Shown here in pieces: positions 6,301-64,000 of a stretch of DNA of 64,000 bases. Numbering within the stretch: the stretch's first letter is position 1; the number at the start of each line of letters is the position of its first letter. Source of the DNA: Membranipora membranacea. Lineage: Eukaryota > Bryozoa > Gymnolaemata > Cheilostomatida > Membraniporidae. Position numbers and translations under genes: made by a program. The notes under the pieces were generated by a model. That model worked only from the letters and a program-made list of their open reading frames with translations, was not told where the DNA came from and did not search any database. The stretch lies in the NCBI GenBank assembly GCA_914767715.1, contig OU612074.1, positions 23,174,062 through 23,238,061 of the forward strand, in the 5' to 3' direction.

Positions 6301-9188
6301 TCGCTAGTTTTTTTTCTTGTCTTAGATCAACAAATCTACAGTTATCCCCCTTGATAAGTGAGGAAATCCCCTAGACAAAGATCAAATGCAGTTAATTAAA
6401 AGAGTATTCTCTGTTATTTAATATATAGCTAGAGTTTGACACAGATACATACTTCCAAAACGATCTGAACTGGAGGAAGTGGAAACAGCTTAACGAATTA
6501 TTAGAAATAACTGAGCCTGTAAAAAAAGATAGATGGCCGGCAGGTCCGGCGGATATCACTGCTTCTTATCACCCTGAGCTGAACACAATGGGTGAGTCTG
6601 TCCAGGATTTAAATATCTCTGTCGCTGATCCAATAGGAAACACCTTAAAGAAGAATCATTCATCTCTTTCGATTGGCTGGCGTGGGCCATTGACCCTAGC
6701 CGACCTGCGATTGAATGATGGATAATGAATTTGCCATGTATCCTAATACCTTCAAAAATGAAGTTGGCGATAACTCTTTAAAACAATCAACAACAAACAA
6801 ACAGCAACATAAATTAAACCTCTTCATGCTGACCTTCATTTTAGCTTAGATATCGCCCCCTAGATATTTAGGGAAGAGACACGTTCAGGAGTGATTATAA
6901 CACTGGCCTTTATATGAAATTAACAAATATCTTTTCTGGTATGTGTTAGAAGTTTATATTCCACTCTACTCAAACTTCTAAACAGAGTTTTGATTATATA
7001 TTTGCAGTCTTACCTGCTGGTGCTCTTCAGCCTCCTTTCTATCACAAGCAGCAACCAATGTAAGTAAAATTAAAAAAGAGAATAGAACCTGATCTTATTG
7101 TCATTTTCTTAAGTCTGTAGATGAAGCCTGTTTTTGATAAAGCTATAAGTTATACTGCTTCATTATTCCTATAACCAAAATATTGAGGAGTGTTAGCTAG
7201 ATTTAATGGCTCTGATTGGCCTCTGATTGCAGGTCGCTGAATTACGGAGGAATGGGATCCTTCATCGGACATGCTATAACTCACGGATTTGATAATACAG
7301 GTATGACAAACTTTGTCTCTTTTTTCTTTATTTTTTTATTATACACTTCATTAGCTGTGCAGTGATTAATGCCAATGAGAACATGCATACATCGAGATTA
7401 AAAGTTTACTAAAAAAGATGATTGCAATATTGCCAGTTCGTGATATTTCCCCGTTTATATTTGTGACGAAAAAAATCAAGGCATTAATTTAGCAACATGC
7501 CATTTGTCTCAGGTTTGTGTTGCTGTAAACTGTGCAGTAACTTCATCAATGTACAAATGAAAAAATAATTCTTCATCCTTACATTGCATCGCATTTGCGC
7601 AAATTCATTATATCTGTGGCTCTTCATTTTCCTTTCTTCACAAAAGGTCGATTGTATGACAAGAATGGAAATATTGGAGGACAGTTGTGGGATGACAAAA
7701 CAGAAGCTTCATTCACAAAGAAGACAGAGTGCATGATAAATCAATATTCCTCTTATGAAATAGAAGAAATAAATCAAAATGTGAGTTGTTTGACAGTTAT
7801 GAACCTTGTGGTTGGAGAAAAGCTTAGGAAAGCAATTTTTAGGACAACTTTTAAATGTGGTAGTTGTAATAAACCAAAAACATTCCACACTTGGTTGCAA
7901 TCCACAAGTCTAAACAAAAAAAATGTTTGCCACAAATATTTGGCGACATCTCATATCTGTTTGCTTAGCAATAATGTGAAGTGAAATTTAAGCTAATCAA
8001 GAAATGATTTCTATCATACAGGTTAATGGTAAACACTCTTTGCCAGAAAATATCGCTGATAATGCCGCTATAAAGACAAGCTATGCGGCTTTTCTGAAAC
8101 ACGAAGAAAAGAACGGGCCAGGACAACGCCTACCTGGACTTATGCAATATAATTCTAAAGAATTGTTCTTTCTCAATTTTGCACAGGTATGAGACAGAAC
8201 AGCAAAAAGCTTTACATGTTTTTACTGCTCAAAATCACCAGAAGTTTATACTACATGTGTTAATAATGGCTGCCACTCGAATCTAGTAGAGAGTAAATAC
8301 TGTCTTTGATTTTATTAAAATTAGATGACACATACATGGTGAAATAGTCAAATACAATGGGCTGTATGTATTCTTTTATTGATCAGTTATTCACTTGTCC
8401 CGTTGCTTAGTGCACCTAATAATGTCTATATACCTGTTTCAGATGTATTGTCGAATTAACAGAGAGGCAGCCTTGAAGTATCATGTAACCGGAGGTCGGT
8501 TTATGAATACAGCTCCTGGTAAATGGAGGTATGTTAACTAAATCTGACATTAGTTCATGCTAGATAAATAACAAGTAGAGCCGATAACCCAAACATGTAC
8601 GCCAGGTTACGTAGTTTGGCAATGGTCAGATCGAATGAGCTTCTTGGATGCGTGTGCATGACTTCAAGTAGTTAATAAGCAGGCGTGCTCATAATCACCA
8701 TCAACCCGTCTTTCCCTTGGATGGTGAGATGAGGCCTACTATTCACTGCCAGGCTATTGGTGTTGTAGAAGACCTTCGTTCAAGCCCCACTGGGTAGCTT
8801 TCAAGAGTTATTGTCCCAACACACTCTCCCCTCCAACCTTGGGTGGATTTTACCCACAAAAAAGTTCAGTCAAAAAAGCTAGATATTTAAACTGATCTTT
8901 CAAGTACTACAACTGAATACTCAGAGTATAATTGTCTCTTACAATAAATCATTGATCACCAACTTACCTCTTCTAAGCATCAGACAACTCTTAATCAAGA
9001 GGCTGTGGCAAAATTATTACTAACTATAATTAAAAATAAAATGAATCTATGTTTCGATGTCTATGTATCATGCCTATTCCTTTTACAGAGTTATCGGACC
9101 CTTATCAAATAATGATGAGTTCTCCAAAGTATTCAGCTGCCCTGTCGGTTCTGTGATGAACCCAGTAGAGAAATGTACAGTCTGGTAG
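357..9188 (+). CDS. Gene A: M13 (neprilysin-like) pseudopeptidase, 3' part, 15 exons
   Basis: Exons: 357-440, 996-1198, 1380-1559, 1997-2080, 2632-2859, 3269-3397, 3626-3724, 5071-5148, 6429-6591, 7008-7059, 7233-7300, 7647-7780, 8022-8186, 8443-8528, 9089-9188 (TAG). All junctions are GT-AG and phases join without a stop, giving about 617 codons. By comparison with gene B, the first four exons (tail, membrane anchor, DPC/CGGW region) lie left of the window. M13 landmarks are [37 protein letters not shown] and a C-terminal KCTVW. The zinc motif is HAITH (7270-7284), so the catalytic Glu is Ala. The NAYY-type substrate-binding motif reads TASY (6558-6569), and the His711-equivalent codon is ACA, Thr (8509-8511). 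The family is type II membrane ectopeptidases that cut peptides; this member should bind zinc but not hydrolyse by the normal mechanism. It is nearly identical to gene B over all shared exons. Confidence 0.93.
2484..2616 (-). repeat. Non-LTR-like 3' tail in gene A intron
   Basis: GAATTGAATTGAATTTATTT reads on the minus strand as AAATAAATTCAATTCAATTC, a tail repeat typical of CR1/L2-like ends. In gene B the match (about 32994-33125) continues into 300 further bases that are missing here. Confidence 0.4.
3735..4870 (-). mobile_element. Non-LTR retrotransposon 3' fragment with RLE-like endonuclease region, in gene A intron
   Basis: Antisense to gene A, between exons 3626-3724 and 5071-5148. Minus-strand frames contain [15 protein letters not shown] and [17 protein letters not shown], typical of the region after the reverse transcriptase, then RHNQVL and RPDLIVWSD with a following [10 protein letters not shown]. 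That order resembles the C-terminal part of R2-type elements, where a CCHC knuckle precedes a PD-(D/E)XK-like nuclease. The knuckle is missing here by a deletion relative to the 35.4 kb copy. Broken by frameshifts and stops; no active element. Confidence 0.7.
5905..6122 (-). mobile_element. tRNA-derived SINE, reverse, in gene A intron
   Basis: Read in reverse it has a tRNA-like head (complement of GGGATTTGAACCC and of AACTGAGCTACCGGC) and a body with CTCTCAGTTTGCAGGCAAGC as in the other SINEs. Gene B keeps only the head (37585-37695). Confidence 0.65.
7270..7284 (+). other. Gene A zinc motif HAITH (inactive HExxH)
   Basis: Codons CAT GCT ATA ACT CAC inside exon 7233-7300. Both zinc-ligand histidines are present; the Glu that activates water in M13 peptidases is Ala. 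The flanks GSFIG and GFDNTG fix the alignment to the canonical M13 motif. Confidence 0.95.
8685..8875 (+). mobile_element. Probable SINE remnant in gene A intron
   Basis: It contains GTTCAAGCCCCACTGGG, like a decayed B box, and a body ending in CCTTGGGTGGATTTTACCC. Duplicated at about 40250-40430 in gene B. Confidence 0.4.
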
Positions 9189-11282: not shown

Positions 11283-11570
11283 CACAAAATTAAATTCTTT
11301 TCTTAGAATGGAAATAGTATCATAACATCATGCAGTTAGAACACTTAACACAGGGGCTCATATGAAATTGATCTGATTGGCTGTCCCTACTAGCATGAAT
11401 TATATAGCCTTGGAAATCAACTTCTTTACAAAACTGCAGACAGTAATAAAATGCATTCAACGTCGATGATTTGGGCTTTTCCAGAATGCTACTAGGGACT
11501 GGCTATTTTTGCAAGCCCATTGTTGGGCAAAAGAAAGCTAATAATGCTATTCCAGATATGGAATTCAATG
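11283..11570 (+). mobile_element. hAT-like MITE, 288 bp, with 8-bp target duplication
   Basis: The element begins CACAAAATTAAATTC and ends GAATTCAATG. It is flanked on both sides by ATTTTTGC (11275-11282 and 11571-11578). The paralogous spacer has a single ATTTTTGC (42822-42829) and no element. An inverted relative of the same length is in gene D (62768-63055). Confidence 0.8.
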
Positions 11571-12269
11571 ATTTTTGCATAAACAATTAATTCATGAATC
11601 CAAAAATAACTAATATCTGATCAATCTCCAATTGATATTGTTGTTGACACTGACACTGGCGCTTTGGGTGGCATGTAAATTGCTAAAACCAGCAGACCGC
11701 TGGCAACTGGGCTACCTATAAGGCAGAGCCGAGTTCTTGAGTCAAGTCTTGACATTTTAATTCCTGTCGCTGAGTGCTGATTCCATAGGATTAGGATCAG
11801 CCAGTAGGGTACCGGAGAAGTAAGGTAGGTGTTGACAGCTTGTTCAAAAGTCTGACAGCTGAGTCATTGTGAGGGTCGCTTGTGTTGTGTAAAACTCTAC
11901 TAACATCCTAAGTGATGTTGCCGTTGTATGCAAGTCCTCCAAAGATATTATTCCATTGAAGACGTAGCCAGAAACACAATTTTTTGAAATTGAAATTGAA
12001 ACCTCATCAATCAAAATTTTCCATATTATATTGCAAGGTTTCATGACACATGTTCCACATGACAAATGGACCACAAGACAAATGTATGTACGTACGTAGA
12101 AAATGTATTATTACCAGCCCCGTTGATCCAAGAGTGTTCATTGCATGTGACGCGACCAGACAAGGAGGAACATTGCATTCATAATCTCAGCATTTAGGTG
12201 AAAACACTCAAGGAAAACTCATCTTGATAAACAAGAAAGTAGACAGCTAGAAAGAACACATAGTGTGAA

Positions 12270-15200
12270 ATGGATGGCTCACTGAGTTCATCCACTGCAA
12301 AGTAAGTAAACCATTACCAGAGAAAATTAAATTGAATTAATTGTTATTAATATTCAAATACTCCTCACACAATCCGTCTGGCAACAGTTGAGAATCAAAT
12401 TGAAATTTTAGATAATGTCCCGGAATGAATTTCTTGCTCTCACATTATGCAATCAATGTTACTCAGATAACGTATTTTGATTATGATTCCTATATTTTGT
12501 GGTGAAGGTGAGGTGGGAAAACAGATTCTAATTAGGACCTTTGTGATTATTCAATATTAGATCAAGAAAATATCATTTCATGGTATTGTCCGGTCAAACC
12601 TTCGCCAACAAACTTTGAGGCGGAATAATCAATCTGACCAAGGGAAGTTATGGATAATCTGAAATTGAAACTATCCAGTTTTCTGAAATAAACTTTCATA
12701 TCATATTGAAGCGATTCAGCTTTCTCCGATCAGATATCGGATTGTAGGGGAGAATATTAAATCATACTGTCTTCTCCAGGCCATAGTCAATCATACCAAC
12801 ATTAGTGTTTGCAGTCTGCCCCCTATATTCAATACCCTTACAGTCACCCTGTCCAATCCCTCATGGTTGGACACCCGCTCACAAAACAAAGTATTTGCAT
12901 CACTCCTAATGATGTCTGTAACTTCAATAAATCTAGGGTTATTAACCTTCCAGAAATGATGAGATCACTATTGTAATGAATCACCAATCATTTTACCATC
13001 TGGTCACAAGTTAATTGTGATAAATGACCAAACAGTTCACAATCTCAAAATTGAAGCTACAAAATAAGCAACCAAAATCATAGCACCACCGTCATGGGGC
13101 TTTGTGAGTTGGATGCTTCCCCAAGTAACCATAGCTGGCCTACATCACCAATCACTGATCTGTTAGGGGTAGTTAGTGTCACCTATAAGCATATCATTGT
13201 TCAATCGCCGACTTAGCTTACGGTTTTTTGTACTTATTAATATTAAAGGTTAGATATCGATTATGGAGAGATGAAAGGGAAGATATTTACTAAGTACTTC
13301 ATCGCTGCTTTGGCAGCAGCCATCATTTTACTGGCCAATTGCAATACCAAAATGCGGTGCAATATAAATTAATGATAAGCAGAAGAGATATAAACTTCAC
13401 TCGATGGTATTTTCTGTTCCTGGAATATTTGAATCACCACCATGTATTAATGTCAAAGATAGCTGTTTTCTTGAGAACTGGTAATTCCGAACAATGGATC
13501 GTTGGTAGAGAATCCAAGAGTATAACAAATTTTATTTCACTCCAAGGCAAAACAAAGGCTTTAATTAGAAAATAGTTATTTTTTAATTCATTTCATTCAT
13601 TTGGCAAAGATTGGGATAAGTGGAACAAGACTTTCATCCTTATATCCTTATTATATATAATTTTTTTTTGCAGCAAATTCTGTGTCATAAACTGCATTTT
13701 GTTTTTTTATTACTGGTGTGCTCTGGGAAGTAATGAGGAAATGATTAAAATAATGGAGGAAGGACTGCAAAGCAGTTAAATCAAAGAATAATCTGTGTTG
13801 TGCATTGCGGTTCTTGTAAAGAAGCTATCTGGTTAAGTTTAACATTTGGCTCATACTCTGTAGTGAAGGATTATGATGAGGTCATTACATTACATATATT
13901 TATTCAATTTATTCATAGTTGAGGTCAGTTCAAACAATCTCATCATAGGTTTTAAAACATTACCTAGCAACTTACCAATGTAAAAGAAGTCCTGACTTCC
14001 AAGTAATCTCAGGCAGCTGCAGAGGTAGTTCTCAGATTCAGAGCAATCAATCAAAGGACTGGTAGTTTTAGAATTCCCATAAGCCAATAGACAGTGGTCA
14101 CATGTCTTCCTTGTGGCCAACAGCATGGTAAACTATGTAGGAGGTGTCATAGCTTTGTAAAAGGCTAGACAACCCTAAAATTTGGAGATGCGATGGGATA
14201 CTTGATAATTTGTTTTGGAATGATTTCAGTCTAAAAAATAACTTTAGAAAAGTTTGATTTTTGTTTCAATATTGTTATATTATATGATGCAGATGGTGGT
14301 AATGACAGAAGAAGTTCGCCAAGCCTTCGATGGAGTTCTAACTCAAACAGAATGGATGGACCCCACGACAAAAAAACTAGCAAAAGAAAAGGTGAAGTGT
14401 TTTGCCAAATCTCATATACTCTAAAAAGTCCAAATGAAAGCCATCAAACGTCCAATTTTGGAGATTTATTTTAGATTTTATACCCTTAAAGTGTGTTTCT
14501 GTTAATGCCATCAGCATACGATCCGAAAGGTTGTGGTTGAACACTCATAGTGCATGTCTCCATGACTGTTGATCAATTGGTCCTGGCTGGGTTCCGAACC
14601 TGTCAACACCATAAGTTTTGATCACAACTTTATCTCCAAATTTGACAATCAATTTCTGCAAATTATTTGCCAATCAGGTGACAATGCTGAGATTGCAGCC
14701 TCATATTACTAGTTTTGACAACCTATACAGAATTTAAAAAGCACACATTTGCCAGCAGTAATTTGAGTCACATCAATTTTTCTCAAGTCATACCGCTATA
14801 TTGAAGTTGTGAATTACTGTTTTAGATATATTGTCGTGCTGACAGGCTGTCCTCACTGAAACGGCAGGTAGCAGCAGGTAACCATTCTCCTGGTAAATGC
14901 AGGTACGTTTATCAGATCTGATATCCTCAAAAAAAGATCATAGGTGGTTAGAGCACCTGCCCTTTAATGCGCAAGCGTTGGAGGAATACAGCTGCAGTCT
15001 CATTGGCTCAATTGACGCCCCAGGTGTGCTCCCCCTGCCTGAAAACTGAAAGCAACTTGGGGCCGTTTATGGCGGCGGCGCCCTTAAAGCACCTTCATTA
15101 CCATTCTTCGGACAGAGACAGACTTGAGATTTTAACCCACATATTACCCATGTACATAGAAAACTATAGCTACAACCGGAGTTGACCATGCAAAACTTTT

Positions 15201-15382
15201 GGATTAAATTGTAACTTTCCCTTTCCGGAACAAAATACAGATTTACGATGGTAACCATGTTGTAACCCTCTTTCATTTACAGAGTGATTGGACCAGTGTC
15301 AAATTATGATGAGTTTTCTAAGGTGTTTGGGTGTCCTGTTGGCTCTGTAATGAATCCAGTAGACAAATGTAGGGTCTGGTAA
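12270..15382 (+). pseudogene. C': gene C copy with two large internal deletions
   Basis: Retained pieces match gene C exons 1, 2 (5' half), 11, 18 and 19: 12270-12301 (ATG, 32 nt), 13249 to about 13325, 14293-14391, 14826-14902 and 15283-15382 (TAA). At about 13322-13327 the transmembrane exon runs straight into sequence matching intron 10 of gene C (near 48997), so the rest of exon 2 through exon 10 is gone. At about 14556-14562, intron-11 sequence (near 49548) jumps to intron-17 sequence (near 52690), removing exons 12-17, including both zinc-binding exons. In exon 18 a Trp codon has become TGC. Exons 11, 18 and 19 are otherwise open. No M13 domain can be made. Reading on from exon 2 gives a 51-residue membrane peptide ending at 13370-13372. 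It occupies the same place after gene A that C occupies after B. Confidence 0.88.
14940..15100 (+). mobile_element. SINE fragment between exons 18 and 19 of C'
   Basis: GGTGGTTAGAGCACCTGCCC and CCAGGTGTGCTCCCCCTGCC match the head and body of the SINE family at position 4. A shorter version is at 53070-53172 in gene C. Confidence 0.6.
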
Positions 15383-15799
15383 GACTCAATACAGTGAAAA
15401 CTGCAACAAAGAAAAACATTGATGTTGTATCCTGTATACGATCTTTGATCACAAGACACCAATATCCCCATATACAATGCTCCAATTAACAAACACACCC
15501 AATTGAGTTAAAAGTACGCTTTCCAATAACTATACTCTGTCTTTGTCATATCAAATACAATAGCATTATATCAATATGAGGAAAGTGTTAACTGATAGTT
15601 AATATATTCTGCATAACATAATTTTTTTCAATTAACATTTTAATTTTATTAAATTTAAATAAGCAATACATCATTTCTTTTAAATCAATGTATTTATTCT
15701 TCAAAGTTTGTAAATATCAAGACTACAAGCAAGAACAAGAAAGCAAGGAACTGAACTGGGCCCCATCCATTGGCTAATTTATGTGTTAAATCTGTTGAT

Positions 15800-16610
15800 T
15801 ATGATACAAAATGTATCAAATATGATGATGAATGATGATACAACCTTTTATAAGCCTATCGTTGATCCATCCACTGAGAACATATCTGATGCAATACTGT
15901 TAGCAAACACCTAGTCTGAGCAAAAGAATATGATTTCGAATTCCAGGAAAACTGTGATACTGAATGTGGCTTACAAAGAAACCTGCTATGCACCTTGGAA
16001 TAACCTATGGAAATGATAATCTCTTTATCTCTCCCTCTGAGCATACCAAGTTTGTAGGCATATTCATAGACATCACACTAACTTTCAACAATGATATTGA
16101 CTATATTATATCTAAATGCTTTCAACGATTATACATGATGAGACTGCTGAAACGCATGGGCATAATCTACTATCAGACACCGATAAAGCACGACTAGAGA
16201 GGACCAAGCACTCTGCTATTCGGATTGTGCTGCCATTCTCTGACAACTATGAGCAGAGGCTGGACCATCTAGCACTGCCACCCATCACGACATTCCTGCA
16301 CACCACTTGCAGTGAACATTTCACTAAAATAGCTGACAACGATAATCACCCCTTGAACTCTTGTATTAAAATAAATACAAACAGAACATCTGCTCGTAGA
16401 GCGAAGATAGAAAAATATAGGCCATCCAAGTGTAAAACAACCAAAAGACAAAATACCTCTTTTGGAATTTATATGCGATTTTTTAACTAATGCAGCTCAG
16501 ACCCCTTTTGTTTTTATTTTTCCACATATATGCCGTATATTCGATGCTATCATCCTATCACAGGATGGATATTAGGATTTAGGCAATAAACAAACTTCAA
16601 ACTTCAAAGA
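15800..16610 (+). mobile_element. CR1/L2-like non-LTR retrotransposon 3' end, downstream of C'
   Basis: Fragments of the reverse-transcriptase C-terminal region: LGITYGND, FVGIFIDITLTFNNDIDYII, LSDTDKARLERTKHSAIRIV and a final FGIYMRFFN before TAA. The 3' end carries CAAACTTCAAACTTCAAAG, a short tail repeat like those of CR1/L2 elements. Split across frames by indels. It lies 0.4 kb after the C' stop codon and matches 53830-54660. Confidence 0.72.
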
Positions 16611-17584
16611 CTGTTCTCCAGGTATTCCCCAGAGCATAATTTTGTAGAACAAATCAAAACCGTATGCAGCTGTATTTTTCCTGCCACGACAAACAAAACT
16701 AAACTTAATCATTCCATAAGTCACACTCCCGGACTCTTTGTGTTGTAAAGATCATTTAAGATATCAGTCGGTCGACTTAAAAAGATCCAAGAATTTTACT
16801 GTCATATTGAAAACTAAGTAGTATATAAATGTAGTTTGGAAACATAGTCTATACAAAAGCTGCCAACAAAAGAAGTTTCCATTTGATGTATCACCAACAG
16901 TCCTATTGCAAGCCTATTATGAAAATCTGTCTAAATCCCAAGGGGGGGGGGCTGACCATATTTTATAATAAAAATAATAAGGTAAAAGAAGTTAACAGGT
17001 AAAACAAAGGTTAACATTCGGGACACATTTCATCGATCTTGACAGTGATGTCACTTAAGTCTAGACAGCAGGCTGTATTGAGTTTTTCAAGTAAAAATAT
17101 TCAGACTTGGTTATTTCATGACTCCTTCCATTGCAAACAAATTCTGATTCCCAGTTAATTTCTTGTTAAAATATAGGGCAGAATGGGCAGAGTGTTAACA
17201 ATTAAAAGTGTTTCATGGTTGATATTTATTGCTTGAATTTTATGCTCTGATAAGTAAATGATCAGGGGAGGTAACTTTAACAAATTTGGCCAAATATTCG
17301 ACACATTATTGATTCAAACGATTTACAAAAAACAACATCAGATCAACCAGGAAATTGGTGACATATATATGAACTATTGAAACAATTTATCAAGCCTCAA
17401 AGACCGATATTTTGATCAAATATGCCTGCGCTTTGTATAGAAACTTGCTGTTTTCACAGCTTAGCGGTTTGAGACATACTTTGATGAGACCAAACGTAAT
17501 AAAAGAGTAGTATAAATGTGAGTCTCAAAGCTGCAGTTAAAATAGATGCTCCTTAGTCCAGGCTAGTGCCTTCTGTACACTTAT

Positions 17585-17800
17585 ATCTTGGGATTCAGGA
17601 GTGGTCCAATGGATCAGAGTCTAGGCTAATGATCTTTGAGGTTAAGGCAGTCATTTCTGATTCTGTACAGCAAGACCCTTCATCCTAACCAGGTCTTTTG
17701 AAAGCGGACCAGACCTACCAGAGGTTCATTGTGTGGTTGCACACTCCACACACAGTAAAAAGACTCCTCTCTGCCTATTTGACATAAATATTGTGATAAC
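17585..17800 (+). repeat. Dispersed repeat, possibly SINE-derived
   Basis: The segment with CCAGAGGTTCATTGTGTGG and CACTCCACACAC recurs at 55625-55830 (paralogous) and, in part, at about 50560-50665 in gene C intron 13. The last is a separate insertion, so this is a dispersed family. Confidence 0.45.
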
Positions 17801-17832
17801 CAATCGATTTTAAGATTTTGTGTTTCAGTTGT

Positions 17833-46500: not shown

Positions 46501-49500
46501 GAAAAAGCTAACTTAGAGCTAAATTTCCTTGTATGTAAGCATTGACACGCAAAACATTTTATAATCTAAGTTAAGTTAATTACGTTCTGTCTACATTTCA
46601 GATAAAATAGAAGAACTGGGAGCGACCCCACTTCGTGACCTTCACACTCACTTAGGAGGCTGGCCACTTACAGATCCGACCTGGAATGATACTGAGTTTG
46701 ACCTTTTATACACACTGAGTGAACTAAGACTTCTGAGTAATGAGTATCTGGTCTATGTTTGGGTTTCTGCCGATGACCGGGATAGCAAAACTAATATAGC
46801 GCAGGTTGGTTTCTGAAGATAGATGCATATTTTTCCCACTTTAATTCCTCAAGGTAAAACAGCCACGGGCAAGACAGCAAAGCTCTGATATTATGGGTGA
46901 TGTATTGAGCACCCTAAGGCAAATTTAAGATATGAGACCAGTTTTTATTCAACCAATCAATGAGTATTATTTGTTTACAGTTGGACCAGTTTCACCTCGG
47001 CCTGCCACACAGAAAATATTACCTAGAGCCTGAATTCTCTAAAGAGTTCAATGCATACAAGACATTAATCAAAGAGATAGCAGTGTATATGGGTGCTGAT
47101 AACAAGACTGTGGATCAGGATGTCAGTGATGTCCTGGAGTTTGAGACTTACATGGCTAATGTAAGTACTTATATAGTGCTAAATATAGCAGCTTGATATA
47201 CAGATATCAAGTTGTTCAACGAAATTGAAAATTTTTAATGACCAAAGTGTTATGAGCCTTTTTCAATTATGGAATCTGTTTCACAGCAAGCATGAACAAG
47301 ATATGATCTCAGCTGCCCATCTGACCACCACTGAATCATTGCCACTGACATCTATCATTCAATGGCTATAGTGTCATCTGTAAATGTTTTTGCGATGAGG
47401 TTGTTCACCATGAGATGTCCTTCATCTGTTCATTACAGCAGGGGGTCAGTTAATATGACTATGTATAAGTCTAACCACATGGTTCATTGACTCTGAGATT
47501 GTCAGTATTTTGACATGTTTTATTTTTAACAAGCTTTGATTGAAGTCATGAGACCTACCTTGATTGTTCATTGGCTATACTATAGATGGCAGTCGTCAAA
47601 TTGTATAAGAGAAAGGTTCAGAGTATTGCAGTCATGTGTTTATGTATCCTTATTAAGTCATTTTTTGTATTTTGTCAGATTTCAATGAAGGAGGAGGATA
47701 GGACGGATCTACATGCCCTATATAACAGATATAAAGTCTCCGAACTGTACACTAAAATATCTGATAAGGTAGGGACCACCCATTCACTATAGGTGATAAT
47801 ATTATGTACTCATTTGTGAAGCAGTTGACTTTACAGGACTAGATGGTAGATTGTTAGGTTTAGATACAAATGAAAGGATATACATATTCTCTCACTACCT
47901 CTACATCAGCATAAACTCCAAAAATGCTTCCCACTTGACCGATTGAACGTGTGTTTATCAACTCATTATTGCTAACAGAACAGCCGTTCTGACATTGCAA
48001 GACATTTTATGGTCAATTTTCCAATATAATATTAGTGATAGTTAAGGTTGCTGGACAATTTCTATTACTTTGATTCAGCAAGTGTTCCTATGAGCTCCGT
48101 AAAATTGCACAAAGTTTGGAATATTTTTACAGTTTGACTGGAAGAAGTTTATGAATCTACTCTTCGTTGATACTGAGTTCAAGTTTGTTGATGACACAGA
48201 GGTCGTAGTCTACGCTCCTGACTTCCTCAAAAAGATGGCGGAGAAGGTGGCGGTCACACCACCAAGAGTACTGGCTAACTACCTGGTGTGGAGAATCACA
48301 GAATACAGGATTACCAATCTACCCCAAGCATTCGTTGATATACAAAATAAGTTCTACAGAGTAAGTGTGCTCTTTTATAACTTCCATGTTATTATGGTGA
48401 GCAGAAATTTGTTCTGATCCAATGAGGGTTTGTTGATAGAGGAGAACAGGATTATTTTTTTGTCTCATTGTGCGAGAAAAATGTGGAGCAGGATTCCGCA
48501 GTAAAATGCTAAAATATGACAACAGTATGGTGTACGGTAAGGATATGTGAGCTGGGGATCCCAGTAAAATACTCCTGGCCAGGTCGGTTCAAGATCAGAT
48601 CCAACCAATTGAAAAATCCCCCTCTGCCTATCAGAAAGAGTAGCAGGTTACATCTTCAAGCCTGATGTCAGAGGACTAAACGATCGCCCTCAATGAGGGC
48701 ATTCAGACAATGACAATGTTTAAAAGAGAATCAAAGGTTATGCCTATTGATATACCCCCTATTCTTAATCAGGTAGCCTATTCGATCCCTGAAGAGCCAC
48801 CACGCTGGTTACGTTGTGTTAACTATGTAAATCAAGCTGTAGGATGGGCTGTCGGGAGATTATTCGTCAACAAATACTTCAAGGAAGAATCAAAAAAATC
48901 TGTAAGTTATATCTACATAACTTTTCAACAATACAGGTTGCTTTATCTGAATGTTATGATTATGATTATCTCTTCCTAAAGACTATATATTGGATTTTAC
49001 TGGCCAATTCCAATACCAAAATGAGGTGCAATATAAATCAATGATAAGCAGAAGAGATATAAACTTCACTCGATTGTATTTTCTGTTCCTGGAACATTTG
49101 AATCACCACCATGTATTAAAGTCAAAGATAGCTGTTTTCTTGAGAACTGGTAATTCCGAACAATGGATCGCTGGTAGAGAATCCAAGAGTGTAACAAATT
49201 TGACTTCACTCCAAGGCAAAACAAAGGCTTTAATTAGAAAATAGTTATTTTGTTTCAATATGGTTATATTGTATGATGCAGATGGCGGTAATGACAGAAG
49301 AAGTTCGCCAAGCCTTCGATGGAGTTCTGACTCAAACAGAATGGATGGACCCCACAACAGAAAAACTAGCAAAAGAAAAGGTGAAGTGTTTTTGCCAATC
49401 TCATATACTCTAAAAAGTCCAAATGAAAGCCATCAAACATCCAATTATGGAGATTTATTTTAGATAGTATACCCTTAAAGTGTGTTTCTGTTACAATGCC

Positions 49501-52500
49501 ATCAGCATACGATCCGAAAGGTTGTTGTTGAACACTCATAGTGCATGTCTTCATAATTTTCTCTGTCTGTAACCTCCATGACCTGACTTAAAAAAGCTGC
49601 CGCTTACACTAACTTACCTACGGAAGATTTGAATTAAGAGTCGGACTTAGTTTTGATACCGCACTCAAAACCTGAAGGAATACAAATCTTTTGTTATAAA
49701 GCAAAATATGTTGCTTGTTTTTTTGTGAATAAATAGAAATACGTGGAAAACTAGACAAGAGAGACAAAATGAGAGTGTTTTTGTTATCAACTGTTGTAGC
49801 TTACAGCGATGAATAATCACATTGGCTATCCAGAGTGGCTTTATAATAACTCAGCGCTCGATTACGAATATGAAGGGGTGAGTCCGATATGATTACCCCT
49901 TTCCTTGCAGTTAGTGAAGTTATGTATATGATCGGTCCCAATCAACTACCTCCAAGTCTTTTGATGATCATCGGTTTATTGAACATCCTCACCAATCACT
50001 TAAACACTGTGTACAAACTGGATGTTCAGATGATGATTGATGTAACTTTCTCTCATCTGCCAGTTGGAGTTTGAGGCCGATACATACTTCCACAACCATC
50101 TAAACTGGCTGAAGTGGATTGAGATCAATGGATTCAAACGAATCACTAAGCCTGTTAAAAAAGACAGATGGTTCACAGCACCAGCTGTCATTGATGCCTA
50201 CTATCATCATGAGCTTAATACGATGGGTATGTAGATACTTTTAATTTTTGTTAATTTTTGTTAATACTTTTATTGGCATCATAATCATGTAAAAAAAAAG
50301 CTTTTCATTATTTTAGGTATATGTGGATTGAGTTTTTGAAGAGATAATTGATAATATGTCTTTTAAAAGTTGACAGAGTATTTGATGATCTAATAAATCT
50401 TGGCAGAGATAAAAATTATTGAATATTATCCTAGCTCGCCACAGTCAGAATGGGATATTGGCTGCCATTAGGGTACAATCTTGCGATCTGTGATAATGTG
50501 ATGTTACCAGTGCTTGCAGCCAGTGATGATTTGTAACTGATATGGCATTCATCCTAGCCATGAGGTTTACTGCCGTGAGGTTCACTGTGCGTTTGCACAT
50601 CCCACAAGCAGTAAAATGACCCTCCTCTGCCTCTTGCATTTTGATGAATTGCGGTGAATTCAGCAGGCAATGGTTAGGGGTGAATCTACAGTACCGTTTG
50701 TCCCAGCAACAAAGAATAGTATGAAGCACACTATTTTGACATTGCTTGTGGAGAAGCCTTCTGGGAAAAAACTTACATTCCATAGCAATTGAGTTTTGTA
50801 AACACAAACTTTGAATTTGTTTTCAGTCTTACCTGCAGGTGTGCTTCAGCCACCCTTCTGGCACAACGATCAACCAATGTAAGTACAAAAATCAGCAACC
50901 GATGTAAAAACACTAACAAGCGACCATTGTACGTACAATTGTAAATACTATAACTTAGCAATCAATGTTAGTACACTAACTTAGCAATCAATGTAAGTAC
51001 AATACTGAGCAATCGTTGTAAGCAAAATAACAATAATACCAATGTAAGTACAAAAATTAGCAATCAGTGTAAACACACTAACTAACAAACAATGTAAGTA
51101 CAACAACTACGAGCAAAAATATAAGTATTACAGCCAACGTCCGTGCGACATGAAACAACAGATGTGAGTGCCGTCAAGAATTACCTGAGAAATTCTTTAA
51201 CATAATGGCTGTTTATTTTACCTAGTGTTACAGCTCAATTGGAGTAGATCATGACCTTAAATGACGCCGTTCAGTAATATACTTTGTGATATAAACATTG
51301 CTTACCTTGTTAGTTTGATATTGCGTCGTCACGGTGTGACCAAACAGTTATAAATAGTCGATGGTTTTAATTTGCAGGTCACTGAATTATGGAGGAATAG
51401 TTTCATTCATCGGACATGCAATGACCCATGGTTTCGATAATTATGGTAGGACAATTCATGATCCATGACATTTTATTGCTTGATCAGGGAATCAGAATTG
51501 AATACAGATTATTTGACATAGAATCATTACAAATATTTGCAGTTCCTTTGCGCCATAACCTTGAAATTATCATGGCAAGATATAATAAGTAATGAATATC
51601 GAAATAATTCATATACTTTATAGATACTTCATGATCATCTGAGACAATTTTGATTTGTCATTCCTTAATTTTAGGTCGGCTGTTCGGCAAAGATGGGAAT
51701 GTCGGACAGTGGTGGGAAAATAAGACACTCGCTTCATTTAAAGAGAAGACGCAGTGTATGATAGACCAATCTTCCTCATATAAAGTAGAAGAAATTGATA
51801 AATATGTGAGTATTTTCTACATCAAGATGACGACAACTCATTTCGTTGATGTCAGTTTTCCAATGAAGAAGAAATTAGGGAAATATAAGATTCACAAAAG
51901 GTCAAAAGAAGTCATGTTAAACTGTTTCTTGTGATTGTAGGAAGAGATGTAACATCAATTTAAATTTATTTCTTATTGTGTGACTTTCTTGACCCAAATC
52001 ATTAGGCAAGTATAAAAAGGTATGTACCTGCCTCTTTAGGCAACTATTTGGTGATTTAAGAAACACGGGTGAAATAAAAATGTTTTGTTGTTTCAAGGTG
52101 AACGGTGAAAACACGCTAGGGGAAAATATCGCCGACAATGGAGCATTAAAGACAAGCTATGAGGCATTCCTAAAACACGAAGAAAAGAACGGGCCAGGGC
52201 AACGCTTACCTGGACTTGTGCAATATAGTTCTAAAGAACTGTTCTTTCTCAATTTTGCCCAGGTATGATATGATGAACCTATATATCGATATTATAATGG
52301 TATTTTTAAAATAACAAGAGTTAAGTTTAGTATATCCCATCAGATAAAACAATGACCATGAGATTTGATGCCACAGTAAAGTATAATAAAATAATTCTGT
52401 TCAAGTCATCACTCATGCTAATGAATAGGTCTAGGATTTCATATGCAGTTTATAGCATGACTTGGGTGAGTTTTTTTAGCCTAGGTCTAGCGGATCACCA

Positions 52501-53455
52501 TTTAGTGTCATTAGCACTGCACCATGGAGTCATGTAATAACAATATTATTTCAAATTTAAGATTGAAGATTAAGTTTGAAGGAATTTTTGAAAGCCAATG
52601 AGATGAGCTTGTTATTTGCATTTTTAAAAGTTCATCTCTTTCAAAGTTATGTTTGCAATCAAATGCTCATTGTAGGACACTGGCAGTATCCATGACTGTT
52701 GATCAATTGGTCCTGGCTGGATTCCAAACCTGTCAGCACCATAAGTTTCGATCACAACTTTATCTCCAAATTTGACGATCAGTTTGTTCAAATTATTTGC
52801 CCATCAGGTGACAATGCTGATATTGCAGCCTCATATTACTAGTTTTGACAACCTGTACAGAATTTAAAAAGCACACATTTGCAAGCTGTAGTTTGAGTCA
52901 CATCAATTTTTCTCAAGTCATACCGCTATATTGAAGTTGTGAATTACTGTTTCAGACATATTGTCGTGCTGACAGGCTGTCCTCACTGAAGTGGCAGGTA
53001 GCAGCAGGTAACCATTCTCCTGGTAAATGGAGGTACGTTTATTAGATCTGATACCCTTAACAACAAAAAATCATAGGACGTTAGAGCACCTGCCCTCTAA
53101 TGCTCCGACCTGCCTGAAAATTGAGAGCAACTTGGGGCCGATTATGGCAGCGGCGCCCTTAAGGCCCCTTCATTACCATTCTTAGGACAGAGACAGACTT
53201 GAGATTTTAACCCACATTTTACCCATGTACATAGAAGACTATAGCTACAACCGGAGTTGACCATGCAAAAATTTGGGATTAAATTGTAACTTTCCCTTTC
53301 CGGAAAAAAACAGATTTAAGTTGGTAACCATGTTGTAACCCTCTTTCATTTACAGAGTGATTGGACCAGTGTCAAATTATGATGAGTTTTCTAAGGTGTT
53401 TGGTTGTCCTGTTGGCTCTGTAATGAATCCAGTAGACAAATGTAGGGTCTGGTAA
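43517..53455 (+). CDS. Gene C: complete M13 (neprilysin-like) pseudopeptidase, type II membrane protein, 19 exons, 755 aa
   Basis: Exons: 43517-43548, 44512-44693, 45096-45140, 45423-45584, 46239-46322, 46602-46804, 46981-47160, 47679-47768, 48133-48360, 48773-48901, 49282-49380, 49800-49877, 50064-50226, 50827-50878, 51378-51445, 51675-51805, 52098-52262, 52956-53032, 53356-53455 (TAA). The sum is 2268 nt, open throughout, with GT-AG junctions. The tail is about residues 1-26 and the anchor 27-52, followed by [37 protein letters not shown] and KCRVW. The zinc motif is HAMTH (589-593; bases 51415-51429), with catalytic Glu replaced by Ala. ENIADN (651-656) is intact. DAYY (548-551) is closer to NAYY than in A/B, and His717 (53013-53015) matches neprilysin His711. 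Exon 8 is 6 nt longer than in A/B; exons 16 and 18 are 3 and 9 nt shorter, as in D. A possible AATAAA lies at 53730-53735. Lies 2.8 kb after B on the same strand. Confidence 0.93.
45850..46080 (+). mobile_element. tRNA-derived SINE in gene C intron 4
   Basis: TAGGAGGTGGCTCAGTTGG head, a weak B box (GGTTAGAATCC) and the shared body CAACTACTGGGGTTCGG, GCCTGCAAACAGAGAGCAA. It lies between exons 45423-45584 and 46239-46322. Confidence 0.75.
50868..51130 (+). repeat. Degenerate tandem array built on the exon 14 splice donor of gene C
   Basis: From the exon 14/intron border, units of about 25-35 bp repeat CAACCAATGTAAGTACAAAA-like sequence: AGCAACCGATGTAAAAACAC, AGCAATCAATGTTAGTACAC, AGCAATCAATGTAAGTACAA, AGCAATCGTTGTAAGCAAAA, ACCAATGTAAGTACAAAAAT and AACAATGTAAGTACAAC. 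The true donor is at 50879. Introns 14 of A, B and D have no such array. Confidence 0.8.
51415..51429 (+). other. Gene C zinc motif HAMTH (inactive HExxH)
   Basis: Codons CAT GCA ATG ACC CAT in exon 51378-51445. The catalytic Glu is Ala (GCA); both His ligands remain. Confidence 0.95.
53070..53172 (+). mobile_element. SINE fragment in gene C intron 18
   Basis: Counterpart of 14940-15100, lacking the middle part. Confidence 0.55.
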
Positions 53456-53829: not shown

Positions 53830-54660
53830 GGGCCCCATCCTTTGGCTAATTTATGTGTTGAAATCTTTTGATTATGATACAAAATGTATCAAATATGCTG
53901 ATGAATGATGAGACAACCTTTTATAAGCCTATCGTCGAGCCATCCACTGAGAACATATCTGATGCAATACTGTTAGCAAACACCAAGTCTGAGCAAAACA
54001 ATATGATTTTGAATTCCAGGAAAACTGTGATACTGAATGTGGCTTTTACAAAAAAACCTGCCATTCACCTTGGTATAACCTATAGAGATGAAAGTCTCTT
54101 TATCTCTCCCTCTGAGCATACCAAGTTTTAAAGCTTATTCATAGACAACGCACCAACTTTCAACAATCATGTTGACTATATTATATTATATTATATCAAT
54201 TATACTTGATGAGACTGCTGAAACGCATGGGCATGGATAGTGATGGCCAGAGAACCTTCTATATAGCTAGAATTAAGTCTATAATCTCCTACGCCTGCCC
54301 TGCATGGTACAATCTACTATCAGACACCGATAAAGCACGACTAGAGAGGATCCAGCACTCTGCTACTCGGATTGTGCTGCCATTCTCTGACAACTTCGAG
54401 CAGAGGCTGGACTATCTAGCACTGCCACCCATCACAACATTTCTGCACACCACTTGCAGTGAACATTTTACTCAAATAGCTGACGACGATAATCACCCCT
54501 TGAACTCTCATATTAAAATAAATACTAACAGAACATCTGCTCGTAGAGCAAAAATAGATAAATATAGGCCTTCCAAGTGTAGAACAACCAAAAGACAAAA
54601 TACCTCTTTTGAATTTTATATGCGATTTTTCAACTAATGCAGCTCAGACTCCTTTTATTT
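53830..54660 (+). mobile_element. CR1/L2-like non-LTR retrotransposon 3' end, downstream of gene C
   Basis: Same element as at 15.8-16.6 kb. The frame 54206-54637 reads IISYACPAWYNLLSDTDKAR through to FEFYMRFFN, the usual end of a CR1/Jockey-group polymerase. The part before it (53868-54131) is in another frame, and some bases between are scrambled (a TATAT repeat at 54179-54198). The 3' tail is lost by a deletion at about 54650. Confidence 0.75.
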
Positions 54661-55869
54661 TTTCCAATCAAAACCGAATGCAGCTGTATTTTTCCTGCCA
54701 CGACAAACAAAACTAAACTTAATCAATCCATAAGTCACACTCCCGGACTCTTTGTGTTGTAAAGATCATTATAGATATCAGTCGGTCGACTTAAAAAGAT
54801 CCAAGAATTTTACTGTCATTTTGAAAACTAAGTAGTATATAAATGTAGTTTTGAAACATGATCTATGCAAAAGCTGCTAACAAAAGAAGTTTCCATTTGA
54901 TGTATCACCAACAGTCCTATTGCCAGCCTATTATGAAAAGCTGTCTAAATCCCAAGGGGGGGGGGCTGATAATTTTTTATAATAAAAATAATAAGGTAAA
55001 AGAAGTTAACAGGTAAAACAAAGGTTAACATTCGGGACACATTTCATCGATCTTGACAGTGATGTCACTTTATTCTCGACAGCAGGCTGTTTTGAGTTTT
55101 TCAGGTAAAAATATGCCGACTTGGTTATTTCATGACTCCTTCCATTGCAAACAAATTCTGATTCCCAGTTAATTTCTCGTTACAGAATATAGGGCAGAAT
55201 TTTAAGTGTAAACAGTTAAAAGTGTTTCATGGTTGATATTTAATATTTGAATTTTATGCTCTGTTAAGTAAATGATCAGGGGAGGTAACTTTAACAAATT
55301 TGGCCAAATATTCGAAACATTATTTGACTGAAACGATTTACAAAAAACAACATCAGATCAACAGTGTCAAAGGAACCATCAACCAGGAAATTGGATGACA
55401 TATTTATGAACTATTGAATAACAATTTATCAAGCCTCAAAGACCCATATTTTGATCAAATATGCCTGCGCTTTGTATAGACACTTGCTGTTTTCACAGCT
55501 TAGCTGTTTGAAACATACTTTGATGAGACCAAACATGATAAAAGAGTAGTATAAATGTGAGTTTCACAGCTGCAGTTAAAATAGATGCTCCTTAGTCCAG
55601 GCTAGTGCCTGCTGTACACTTATATCTTGGGATTCAGGAGTGGTACAATGGATCAGAGTCTAGGCTAATGATCTTTGAGGTTAAGGCAGTCAGTTCTGAT
55701 TCTGTACTGCAAGACCATTCATCCTAACCACGTCTTTTGAAAGCGGACCAGACCTACCAGAGGTTCATTGTGTGGTTGCACACTCCACACACAATAAAAA
55801 GAATCCTCTCTGCCTATTTGACATGAATGTTGTGATGACCAATCGATTTTAAGATTTTGTGTTTCTGAT

Positions 55870-57000: not shown

Positions 57001-57016
57001 TTCTTTTTTCTCATAG

Positions 57017-57104
57017 TGATTGGTCGAATTACGGTGAGTTCTTCAAGGCTGGCTGCCTTGTGGGTTCAGCGTTGCACCCGGAACACAAATGCAAGGTCTG
57101 GTAA
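57017..57104 (+). pseudogene. Orphan M13 terminal exon (remnant or alternative last exon)
   Basis: After a pyrimidine-rich tract and TAG (57014-57016) an open frame reads SDWSNYGEF, an AGC segment and KCKVW, then TAA (57102-57104). It aligns with the terminal exon of gene C (SNYDEF, FGC, KCRVW), with about three residues missing near the start. The two C-terminal cysteines and the final VW are kept. The splice phase fits the gene C exon 18 donor (AG plus one base). No other M13 exon was found between 53.5 and 57.0 kb on this strand. It is either a relic of a lost paralogue or an alternative last exon for gene C, 3.6 kb downstream. Confidence 0.75.
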
Positions 57105-57109
57105 GGGGA

Positions 57110-58625: not shown

Positions 58626-58698
58626 GCCCGGATAGCTCAGTCGGTAGAGCATCAGACTTTTAATCTGAGGGTCCAGGGTTCGAGTCCCTGTTCGGGCG
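58626..58698 (+). tRNA. tRNA-Lys (anticodon UUU)
   Basis: A 73-nt cloverleaf: acceptor stem GCCCGGA with TTCGGGC (one G-T pair), D-arm GCTCAGTCGGTAGAGC, anticodon stem TCAGA/TCTGA with loop CTTTTAA (anticodon TTT at 58659-58661), T-arm CAGGGTTCGAGTCCCTG, discriminator G. A and B boxes are intact, and a T-run (58708-58711) follows as a likely Pol III terminator. No intron. Unlike the SINE heads in this window, all four stems pair. Confidence 0.96.
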
Positions 58699-61326: not shown

Positions 61327-64000
61327 TTACCAGATGTTACATTTATCTACTGGGTTCATTACAGAGCCAACAGGACAGCTGAATGCTTTAGCAAACTCAG
61401 GAGAATTTGATATGGATCCTATCACTCTGAAAATGACATGAGGTATTTGTGTTAAAAAAGAGGAAAATTGAAACATCAATGATTGTAGAGAAATAAAAGG
61501 GTGATCGTAATTTACATACATCAATCATAAAATGACAGGGTCAAAAAAATCTAAAATTGCAAAATTTAAAATTTGGATATTAGATTGTCGAGTAAGAGAT
61601 ATGATGATGTTTATCAGGTTAACGTACCTCCATTTTCCAGGAGTATGGTATCCAGCGGTGACCTGATCCTTCAACGATGACAGTCGGTCAACTGTACAAT
61701 CAACCTGAAAAAATGATCACCTGAAGTTCACAGTGGTGTTGAACATTTCACCTTTACTCGAATCATCTAGCATACATCATTTAATGAATTGAACAGCTCA
61801 TTCTGAGCCTAAAGCAATGAACAGCAAACCCAAGTTCACGCTCTTCATATGTGTAAATAGGAGTATGATCTAAAGTGTTTTGACAGAGATATGCTCACAG
61901 ATTTTGTGCCCATACAAAAATAGACCATCATAAACCCAATTCAATTCATAATGGTGCCCGCAGAACTATGGCAGGGACCTACTATGTAAAACCAAAGCTC
62001 CATTTAACTTAGGCCTCTTTTACTCCATTGATCTGAATTGGCAAATTTAAGTGCGATATTTTGTTGACCTGACACTGATATAGCCTTCATGGCTTTATTA
62101 CACAATCAAATTCAGCTTTGTCCGCTGAAGCCGGATGAAATTTGTCCTGATTCTTCATAAGCTCAAAAGCTACATACCTGGGCGAGATTGAGAAAGAATA
62201 ACTGTTTGGAGTTATATTGCACAAGTCCAGGTAGTCTCTGTCCTGGTCCGTTTGCTTCTTCGTGTTTCTGGAAAGCTTCATAGCTTGTCTTTATAGCTCC
62301 ATTATCAGCTATATTTTCAGCCAGCGTGTTTTCACCGTCCACCTGAAATTTACAAAACCTTTGAAATTCACCTGCTAAACACTTCAATATCAATTCATTT
62401 GCTTTTCAAACCTGACGTAAAGTCACATTCCAACTCACACACAAGCAGTACCAAGAACATCACTTTCTTTGGTAATGTCTCAAATACTTGAAGGAACCAA
62501 ATGTCAAATTTCAATCTTCAACAGAGGGCACAACTCTGTAATATGATCATTGCTTGGGAAAACCTCTATTTCCCTGTGACATCATAAGAACACTCTCTTT
62601 ATTCCATTCATATCCGTCTTAATATAAAGAATCAACAAGCTGTGTGTTCGACTGTCCCTTGGTGCAGCAAACACTGCCTGTCTATGACAAAACAGAGCGT
62701 GGGCTGCCACTAAATAGTGACGCAAGTTGCCCAAAGTCCTCGTACTGATAGTGTAATACATCCTAGTCATTGAATTCCATATCTGGAATAGCATCATTAG
62801 CTTTCTTTTGCAAAACAAAGGGCTTGCAAAAATAGCCAGTCCCTAGTAGCAATCTAGAAATGCCCTAATCATCGACACTGTGTGGGGTATAATTACTGTT
62901 TGCAATTTTGTAAACAAGACAATTTCTCAGGCTAATTATTCATGCTACTAGGGACAGCCAATCAGATAACAGTCAGATGGGTCCCTGTGTTTAGTATCCT
63001 AACCGTATAACGCTATGATACTATTTCCATTCTAAGAGAAGAATCTAATTCAGTGATCCTAGTAAATTAGAATGCATCCTAGAATTGAGGCCACGGGGGA
63101 CCTCCTAATCATGAGTGTGGAGCAAGCTGCAAGAAACTGAAACAGGCACTTATCGCAGTGACACTTTGACCTTAGCCAATAGGCTGAGAAGCTACTACTC
63201 ACATATTTGTCAACCTCTTCTACTTTGTAAGAGGAATACTGATCTATCATGCATTTTGTTTTTGCTAGGAATGAAGCTAGTGTTTTATCATCCCACCATT
63301 GGCCGATATTTCCATCTTTGTCAAAGAATCGACCTATTAAAATGGGATAAACAGAAAAACCTCTAAAGCGTAGTATGTGGTGAAGATACAAAGCCTATAA
63401 TGTAAGGATTGAGATTTGCATTCAAATTGCCGACAACCATGATCTCTAGCCGCACGGAAACTAACAACTAGAATCTGTAGCAAAATTGAAGCTGATCATT
63501 TTTTATTCCCAGTATGCACGACATCACTGATCGTGACTAACATACCAATGTCGTCGAATCCATGAGTGATTGAGTGTCCAATGAAGGATCCAATTCCTCC
63601 ATAGTTCAGTGACCTGTAAATTAAACACGAAAATATGAAGATGTACAGTGGGTTACAAAATGTCTATATCAAGGATGTTCTGGTGATTACGATATGTGTC
63701 ACAAAAATGCATCGAAGTTTTCATCAAAGTCTTTGTTACATTTTTATTATGCCATGTAATAATTGATAATGAATAAAACAAAGTCTCAGATAACAATTGT
63801 CTTCTCCTGTAAATTCTTTGTTTACTTACATCGGTTGCTCTTTGTGATAGAAAGGAGGCTGAAGGGCACCGGCAGGTAAGACTGAAAAAAATTTTAGTGG
63901 AAATTAAAAGAGCGGTTGAACTTACACATTTCATGTAGGCATGACGACATGATGAAGATATACCTGACATGCGAAATAGACATGGACATTTTTGGACTCA
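61327..64000 (-). CDS. Gene D: M13 (neprilysin-like) pseudopeptidase, last six exons, runs off the right edge
   Basis: Exons on the minus strand, in gene order: 63881-63830, 63613-63546, 63333-63203, 62342-62178, 61704-61628, 61426-61327 (stop TAA 61329-61327). Lengths 52, 68, 131, 165, 77 and 100 nt equal exons 14-19 of gene C exactly, with GT-AG borders and an open frame. Motifs: [16 protein letters not shown], then HSITH (63576-63562), with Ser in place of the catalytic Glu; [14 protein letters not shown]; a His in YHTPGKW matching neprilysin His711; and C-terminal KCNIW. The D protein reads GFDDIG after the zinc motif, closer to the canonical GFDD than GFDN in A-C. Exons 1-13 lie beyond position 64000. 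The gene converges on gene C, with about 7.9 kb between their stop codons. The shared exon-16 and exon-18 lengths suggest D is closer to C than to A/B. Confidence 0.92.
62768..63055 (-). mobile_element. hAT-like MITE, 288 bp, in gene D intron, with 8-bp target duplication
   Basis: Termini CATTGAATTC and GAATTCAGTG region (AATTCAGTG at the right end) form short inverted repeats. Both flanks are ATCCTAGT (62760-62767 and 63056-63063). Internal sequence matches 11283-11570 in reverse. An 8-bp duplication with CA...TG ends fits the hAT superfamily; no transposase is present. Confidence 0.8.
63562..63576 (-). other. Gene D zinc motif HSITH (inactive HExxH)
   Basis: Minus-strand codons CAC TCA ATC ACT CAT in exon 63613-63546. 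The catalytic Glu is Ser (TCA), one base from the Ala codon GCA used in gene C. Confidence 0.95.

Follow-up and report, generated by a model that had tools for sequence, protein, structure and literature searches.

Tandemly clustered neprilysin-like genes of the bryozoan Membranipora membranacea lack the catalytic glutamate of M13 peptidases and nearly always retain the zinc ligands

A stretch of 64,000 nucleotides from the bryozoan Membranipora membranacea (assembly GCA_914767715.1, contig OU612074.1; chromosome 10, C10:23174062-23238061; hereafter "the window", in whose coordinates positions are given unless stated otherwise) contains four genes of the M13 (neprilysin) peptidase family, A to D, in which the glutamate of the HExxH motif is replaced and the zinc ligands are kept. 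They belong to a larger cluster with several intact reading frames under constraint, and the intact copies compared differ most from each other in two short segments. The genes would appear to encode membrane-anchored M13 pseudopeptidases with a conserved, probably zinc-bearing scaffold and a diversifying binding face; we give this reading a probability of roughly 0.6. Zinc occupancy, location at the cell surface, binding of ligands and any biological role are predictions from the sequence.

An earlier note on this DNA had described four M13 genes without catalytic glutamate and with intact zinc ligands. Six-frame translation confirmed three plus-strand motifs, HAITH at 7270 and 38847 and HAMTH at 51415, and one minus-strand motif, HSITH at 63576, all in M13 context; the codons at position 584 are GCT, GCT, GCA and TCA (Ala, Ala, Ala, Ser) in genes A, B, C and D, respectively. 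ENIADN is present in all four genes, as had been noted; the context GSFIG, also ascribed to all, was found in three of them, gene C having VSFIG instead.

Gene models were obtained with a spliced aligner seeded with the neprilysin of Lingula anatina, which was the best homologue (43% identity); the exon borders were finalised manually and then checked. The homologue search yielded 985 proteins, and this ranking as well as all statements on residues rest on the best 120 of them. GT-AG borders were present at 51 of 51 introns of the four models, and exon lengths and phases agree between the genes. No stop codon occurs in the 616 (A, in the window), 682 (B), 680 (C) and 196 (D) codons read. Gene A reaches upstream of the window, where exons 1-3 are intact; gene D, with about 18 exons, has no more than its last 6 inside the window. 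Genes B and C have 682 and 680 codons, respectively, counted from their DVC residues, and about 737 and 743 with the transmembrane exon; open frames of about 750 codons had been claimed for them, of which the openness stands and the size is slightly lower. The start-codon exon was not located for any gene. A Pfam scan of gene C showed PF05649 (E 3.2e-115) and PF01431 (E 5.7e-57) over the full length, and A, B and D align with C over their covered length, which places all four in the M13 family. A, B and C each have a hydrophobic exon and, next after it, a conserved DVC exon. Type II membrane proteins are arranged in this way, and a single-pass type II membrane anchor is predicted for these three.

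Glutamate is found at position 584 in all of the best 120 homologues (HExxH), 117 of which matched the initial search pattern while three were recognised from their listed motifs; its loss is therefore not due to chance. In an alignment of A-D with 119 homologues (one double-length protein, P0032, was dropped), 98 columns were near-invariant, of which 19 of 91 covered were changed in A, 19 of 98 in B, 16 of 98 in C and 7 of 59 in D. None of the five zinc ligands and second-shell residues (His583, His587, Glu646, Asp590, Asp650) was changed. Columns for substrate binding or catalysis, a set that was chosen after the changed columns had been seen in the alignment, were changed in at least one gene in 7 of 11 cases versus 15 of 82 other columns (one-sided Fisher p 0.003), and in every covering gene in 6 of 11 versus 5 of 82 (p 0.0002). 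Ile558, Phe563 and Val580 were put in this set partly on the basis of what we take to be their place in neprilysin structures. The replaced residues are Asn542 (Thr in A and B, Asp in C; D not covered), Ile558, Val580, Glu584, Gly653 and Trp693; His711 is replaced in A and B and kept in C and D, and Arg717 is retained. The sources for the residue set were PMC2259306, PMC7822871, PMC4121237 and PMC4908401.

The substrate motif NAFY/NAYY is represented by TASY in A and B and by DAYY in C (D not covered), while the C-terminal CxxW is present as CTVW (A), CTVW (B), CRVW (C) and CNIW (D). The genes thus belong to the neprilysin-like class as defined in PMC8223033 (similarity to neprilysin, at least one of four catalytic motifs missing), since HExxH is missing in four genes and NAFY in the three that cover it. 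The loss exceeds a single point change: the general base, a substrate-backbone contact and hydrophobic S1' residues are gone, and the metal site stayed. Judged from these residues, A-D cannot be conventional peptidases. Phe580 and Ala653 are common to all four genes, which makes a single loss of Glu584, preceding the split of the copies, the most likely history.

Peptidase activity that persists or has changed, whether through a substitute base, through RNA editing or through use of a different exon, would be in keeping with the intact zinc ligands, Asp650 and Arg717, and with His711 in C and D. We consider it highly improbable; Asn542 and Trp693 are replaced as well. RNA editing was rejected, since neither A-to-I nor C-to-U changes can make GAR from GCN or TCA. 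An alternative exon encoding HExxH, which the earlier note had named as evidence that would overturn its reading, was likewise rejected: no such exon in M13 context was found among the six-frame open segments of at least 20 residues in the window, a scan that would miss motifs interrupted by an intron, and the only HExxH strings in these segments were HESRH at 26690 and HELYH at 26096 (minus strand), neither in M13 context. Neither Ala nor Ser is known to act as substitute base for Glu584. A homologue search limited to the region around HAITH gave five candidates and one match, an endothelin-converting-enzyme homologue of Adelges cooleyi, by name alone.

A Pfam search of the assembly (339 Mb, 18 contigs) gave at least 34 exon matches to PF01431. 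The clustering of the family, which had been proposed from the window, was borne out on a much larger scale: at least 16 copies, some of them broken, lie between 22.72 and 23.25 Mb, window included. The active-site exon was readable in 16 copies, with His-Ala in 14, His-Ser in one (D), Asn-Ala in one (g22723) and His-Glu in none. ENIADN was present in 16 of 16 and both zinc histidines in 15 of 16. Assembly or sequencing error as cause of the lost glutamate was rejected in view of the 16 copies and their different codons.

Full reading covered 22.70-22.90 Mb, the window and the 4 kb before it, and broken copies were examined by exon-by-exon BLAST. Copies g22748 and g22878 are complete (18 exons, 737 codons, 0 stops), and together with A, B and C they make five copies that are full-length apart from the unlocated start exon. 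Copy g22723 (L013, C10:22.723 Mb), which is C-type, is broken; it has one stop, has lost His583 (GNAMTH for GHAMTH) and has Gln at 711. Copy g22773 is also broken (three exons missing, one stop), and g22795 and g22862 are degenerate. A copy of exon 9 at 22.824 Mb has no active-site exon nearby within 22.70-22.90 Mb. Six other copies were covered at exons 13-18 alone; no frameshift was present there, and three exon matches were incomplete at one end (exon 14 of L004, exons 13 and 15 of L018). L004 (C10:23.25 Mb), the next copy past D, has HAITH and ENIADNGA and lies near both C and D types in the C-terminal tree described below.

Ratios of nonsynonymous to synonymous substitution rates (dN/dS), which the earlier note had recommended for A-D with a value near 1 as refutation, were below 1. 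By the method NG86 they were 0.33 for A-B (bootstrap 0.19-0.54), 0.19 for A-C and for B-C, 0.11 for C-D, 0.18 for A-D and 0.21 for B-D; the bootstrap limits for A-B, A-C, B-C and C-D were all below 1. In codon models, omega (dN/dS, likelihood ratio against 1) was 0.40 for A and B (p 0.001), 0.23 for A, B and C (p 8e-39) and 0.17 for all four genes (p 8e-29). No weight was given to two results of free-ratio fits, an omega of 1.0 on the short A branch with three genes (p 0.04 versus one ratio) and an unstable omega of 54 on the B branch with four genes and 196 codons (p 0.06). Low dN/dS, stop-free frames and GT-AG introns together show that the coding sequence is under constraint.

Decay of the family, i.e., loss of Glu584 in a functionless duplicate and drift of its copies to pseudogenes, could explain the broken copies in the window (E and F, see the table) and outside it (g22723, g22773, g22795, g22862), the additional loss of His583 in g22723, and the pairwise dN/dS of B-type copies, which at 0.33-0.50 is above that of the deeper comparisons (0.11-0.23). 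As an account of the family it is improbable. Neutral simulation predicted about 25 stops per lineage since the split of A and C, and about 3 since that of A and B (none in 3.6% of runs), and none is seen in either case; the borders of all 51 introns and the low deep ratios argue in the same direction. Changes gather, moreover, in two segments (see below), and omega is low in the zinc exons 14 and 16 (0.15 and about 0.3), although these short exons are singly not significantly below the rest (p 0.10 to 0.13). The earlier argument that open frames speak against decay holds, therefore, for some members of the cluster and fails for the broken ones.

Variability was studied in four intact copies of the B type, namely A, B, g22748 and g22878. 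Among their 682 codons the amino acid varies at 83, and two segments stand out: codons 46-60, where 10 of 15 vary, and codons 336-348, where 8 of 13 vary (permutation p 0.0001 for the densest window of 15 codons). Codons with synonymous variation only are absent from both segments, so that a raised mutation rate is not the explanation. Segment 1 corresponds, by direct alignment to neprilysin, to a stretch bounded by Arg102 and Arg110, which are part of the S2' subsite (PMC7822871; PMC4908401). Segment 2 surrounds Cys410, a few residues past Gly399 and the loop 400-404; mutation of Gly399 alters the substrate selectivity of neprilysin, and the loop lies at the domain interface (PMC4121237). In the predicted model of the Lingula homologue segment 2 is a helix (residues 434-445), and the sites with at least three states (338, 339, 342, 345 and 346) span about 120 degrees of the helical wheel, a clustering that was counted by hand and would arise by chance in about 1 of 16 cases.

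By exon, omega was 1.88-1.89 in exon 9 versus 0.45-0.46 in the other exons (p 2e-7 to 3e-7, still significant once corrected for 17 exons), 1.17-1.33 in exon 3 (p 0.002 to 0.0001 versus the rest) and about 1.15 in exon 17 (p 0.02 to 0.03 versus the rest). Exon 17 of gene B (40006-40091) contains a third, weaker variable stretch at about residues 693-714 of neprilysin, whose residue 698 lies at a distance of 5.9 A from residue 399 on the other side of the domain interface (PMC4121237). Exon 9 was found at 11 further B-type places with 89-97% identity to B, of which five were read (A, g22748 and g22878, which were in the test, and g22795 and g22862, which were outside it) and six were assessed only by their identity. 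In exons 14 and 16 the B-type copies share 96-100% identity with B.

The mechanism which we favour would be the following. A lineage-specific tandem family grew on one chromosome from the neprilysin lineage of the genome itself, and the general base Glu584 would have been lost before the copies radiated, along with other substrate-handling residues. Purifying selection would keep the scaffold, the conserved cysteines and the zinc site. Intact copies differ most in the loop of the S2' subsite and on the helix around Cys410. The most likely action would be binding: a zinc-braced cleft with a copy-specific rim could be displayed at the cell surface, and each copy might capture or sense a different peptide or protein ligand, as receptor, decoy or sink, with no cleavage. 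The hypervariable loop and helix suggest that ligands differ between copies. The simple notion of a dead neprilysin which holds neprilysin substrates is weakened, since Asn542, Ile558, Val580 and Trp693 are replaced too. A further step, which we put forward as tentative and less likely than not, is a diversifying receptor family with a shared, constrained zinc-bearing ectodomain and membrane anchor, positive selection on the S2' loop and the Cys410 helix, and a peptide or protein specificity particular to each copy; if true, receptors made from dead neprilysins would resemble gene families engaged in recognition or conflict, be it in immunity, in reproduction or between self and non-self.

Several points weigh against the reading as pseudopeptidases with a diversifying binding face. 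The 200 kb at 22.70-22.90 Mb contain six copies in which an active-site exon is present, and four of these are broken; in all, only five copies were shown to be full-length. An omega above 1 is only nominal for exon 9 (p 0.016 to 0.019 before correction for 17 exons) and not supported for exon 3 alone; jointly, exons 3 and 9 exceed 1 at p 0.028 with a star tree and at p 0.069 with the best tree. With four copies the sample is small, and the omega test could be biased by gene conversion between them. Finally, the changes at Asn542, Ile558, Val580 and Trp693 may mean that the former cleft has lost peptide binding altogether.

Relatives of the cluster are present elsewhere in the genome. A gene at C10:2.745 Mb, on the same chromosome, has HEITH with VNAFY, i.e., intact canonical neprilysin motifs, and could serve as a built-in control. 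Genes at C6:20.29 Mb (HELSH, canonical) and C9:19.487 Mb (HEFAH) also have the glutamate. At C1:0.83 Mb an M13-like gene (L026) has HELTN, without the second zinc histidine. A relative at C10:21.458 Mb (L006/L025) has FPMTS and TNIAD; its zinc site is gone, and the exons that were modelled form an open frame. In a tree of C-terminal sequences (26 rows, 196 columns) the cluster grouped with this zinc-less gene (support 99/97), and both joined the canonical C10 neprilysin and a gene at 19.93 Mb at 94/90, just below the mark (star) of the program. In a tree with M13 proteins of animals, A-D came out as a single clade (SH-aLRT 100); its stem measured 1.36 changes per site and had no resolved position among these proteins. 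Both trees were built without sequences named as Nepl.

The presence of canonical-motif genes (C10:2.745 Mb, C6:20.29 Mb) is of interest for the idea that the cluster encodes inactive subunits or chaperones, which pair with M13 enzymes of the same genome and tune them, similar to the alpha and beta subunits of mitochondrial processing peptidase; inactive partner subunits are known among metallopeptidases (PMC11266112). This appears unlikely, because the variable segments show no tie to a dimer interface, and diversification between copies would be surprising in a protein that pairs with just one or two conserved enzymes. Somewhat less doubtful, if still rather unlikely, is an ectoprotein for signalling or adhesion whose zinc cleft has no more than a structural part, on the model of the membrane pseudopeptidase Gone early; the variable segments would then be contacts between proteins and not sites of peptide binding. 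The open frame of the zinc-less 21.458 Mb relative would fit, and the same gene shows that loss of the site is possible; yet the cluster has kept both histidines in 15 of 16 copies and ENIADN in all 16, and one of the variable segments coincides with the S2' subsite.

Table 1. Features of the window, with positions counted from its first nucleotide
Feature	Position	Strand	Remarks
Gene A, putative M13 pseudopeptidase, exons 4-18	357..9185	+	Spliced model; exons 1-3 upstream, C10:23171667-23173756
Gene A, zinc-site exon	7233..7300	+	Ala codon GCT at 7273-7275
Gene A, third-ligand exon, ENIADNAA	8022..8186	+	Spliced model
Gene A, counterpart of hypervariable segment 2	3299..3337	+	Codon comparison of four copies
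Gene B, 18 exons	27624..40750	+	Transmembrane exon 27624-27778, DVC exon 28214-28258, 16 more
Gene B, zinc-site exon, HAITH	38810..38877	+	Six-frame translation, spliced model
Gene B, third-ligand exon, ENIADNAA	39585..39749	+	Spliced model
Gene B, hypervariable segment 1, codons 46-60	30169..30213	+	Aligns with neprilysin Arg102-Arg110, S2' loop
Gene B, hypervariable segment 2, codons 336-348	34053..34091	+	Helix around neprilysin Cys410
Gene C, 18 exons	44512..53452	+	Transmembrane exon about 44512-44693, DVC exon 45096-45140, 16 more
Gene C, zinc-site exon, HAMTH	51378..51445	+	Six-frame translation, spliced model
Gene C, third-ligand exon, ENIADNGA	52098..52262	+	Six-frame translation, spliced model
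Gene D, last 6 exons, ends at window end	61330..63881	-	Spliced model
Gene D, zinc-site exon, HSITH	63546..63613	-	Six-frame translation, spliced model
Gene D, third-ligand exon, ENIADNGA	62178..62342	-	Six-frame translation, spliced model
E, decayed partial copy of C region	11559..17826	+	Part of transmembrane exon and last two exons left
F, degenerate last-exon remnant	57009..57101	+	Spliced aligner search

Genes A and B can be aligned through their introns, in pieces with 87-98% identity, and E aligns with the C region (42810-55865) in seven pieces with 92.5-96% identity. The simplest reading would be duplication of a unit of (A/B) and (C), after which the C copy of one unit (E) lost most of its exons and A stayed intact. 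A with E and B with C may instead be two haplotypes which were misplaced in tandem; the number of copies would then be smaller and the main finding unaffected. Fragments of retroelement-like coding sequence are present on the minus strand at 3669-4876 and 35588-36525, in the same intron (exons 10-11) of A and B, and four of the eight listed database relatives of the former carry PF13966. A transfer RNA gene is located at 58626-58698 (Rfam RF00005, 74 bits).

Pseudopeptidases of the M13 family are known from Drosophila, where 21 of 28 M13 genes are predicted to be inactive (Neprilysin-like, Nepl); like the cluster, these are homologues within M13 whose catalytic motifs were lost, and they have expanded and sit in part in tandem clusters (PMC8223033); compared with them the cluster is marked by the transmembrane exon in A, B and C. 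In a broader survey 30 of 111 M13 sequences had significant changes at catalytic or structural positions (PMC2259306). Nepl15, which has been proposed to bind and sequester peptides, resembles A and B in being predicted inactive and in missing the counterpart of His711, but two of its three zinc ligands are Arg, Glu584 is Gln and S1' is hydrophobic, whereas A-D keep the ligands (PMC7822871). Gone early is likewise a type II transmembrane M13 pseudopeptidase; its zinc site is, however, destroyed (EAxxD, Val as third ligand; PMC11266112). Rat Kell also lacks Glu584 (Lys) and differs in that the ligand Glu646 is gone as well (Ser; PMC2259306). Mammalian ACE3 is not an M13 protein; it is a single gene beside ACE and has, in the mouse, also lost the second-shell Asp (PMC1925091). 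A large lineage-specific M13 expansion is present in the pincer wasp, with 66 neprilysin-like genes, 26 of them associated with the venom gland, but these are treated as venom metalloproteases, and the accessible text of that source does not report loss of catalytic residues (PMC8314478). A dead M13 protein is not automatically a sink, since Nep4 with an E-to-Q change, when overexpressed in muscle, left food intake, size and expression of insulin-like peptides unchanged and caused late larval lethality (PMC5140268).

In the literature searched, which covered few subscription papers, no report was found of a family of M13 pseudopeptidases in which retained zinc ligands go together with hypervariability at S2'. 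While M13 pseudopeptidases as such are known from Drosophila, the combination of kept ligands and hypervariable segments would appear to be new. It makes testable the idea that neprilysins without activity work through peptide binding, a zinc site being retained for binding and not for catalysis: the characterised Nepl15 and Gone early have damaged zinc sites, whereas the Membranipora cluster keeps its metal site nearly always.

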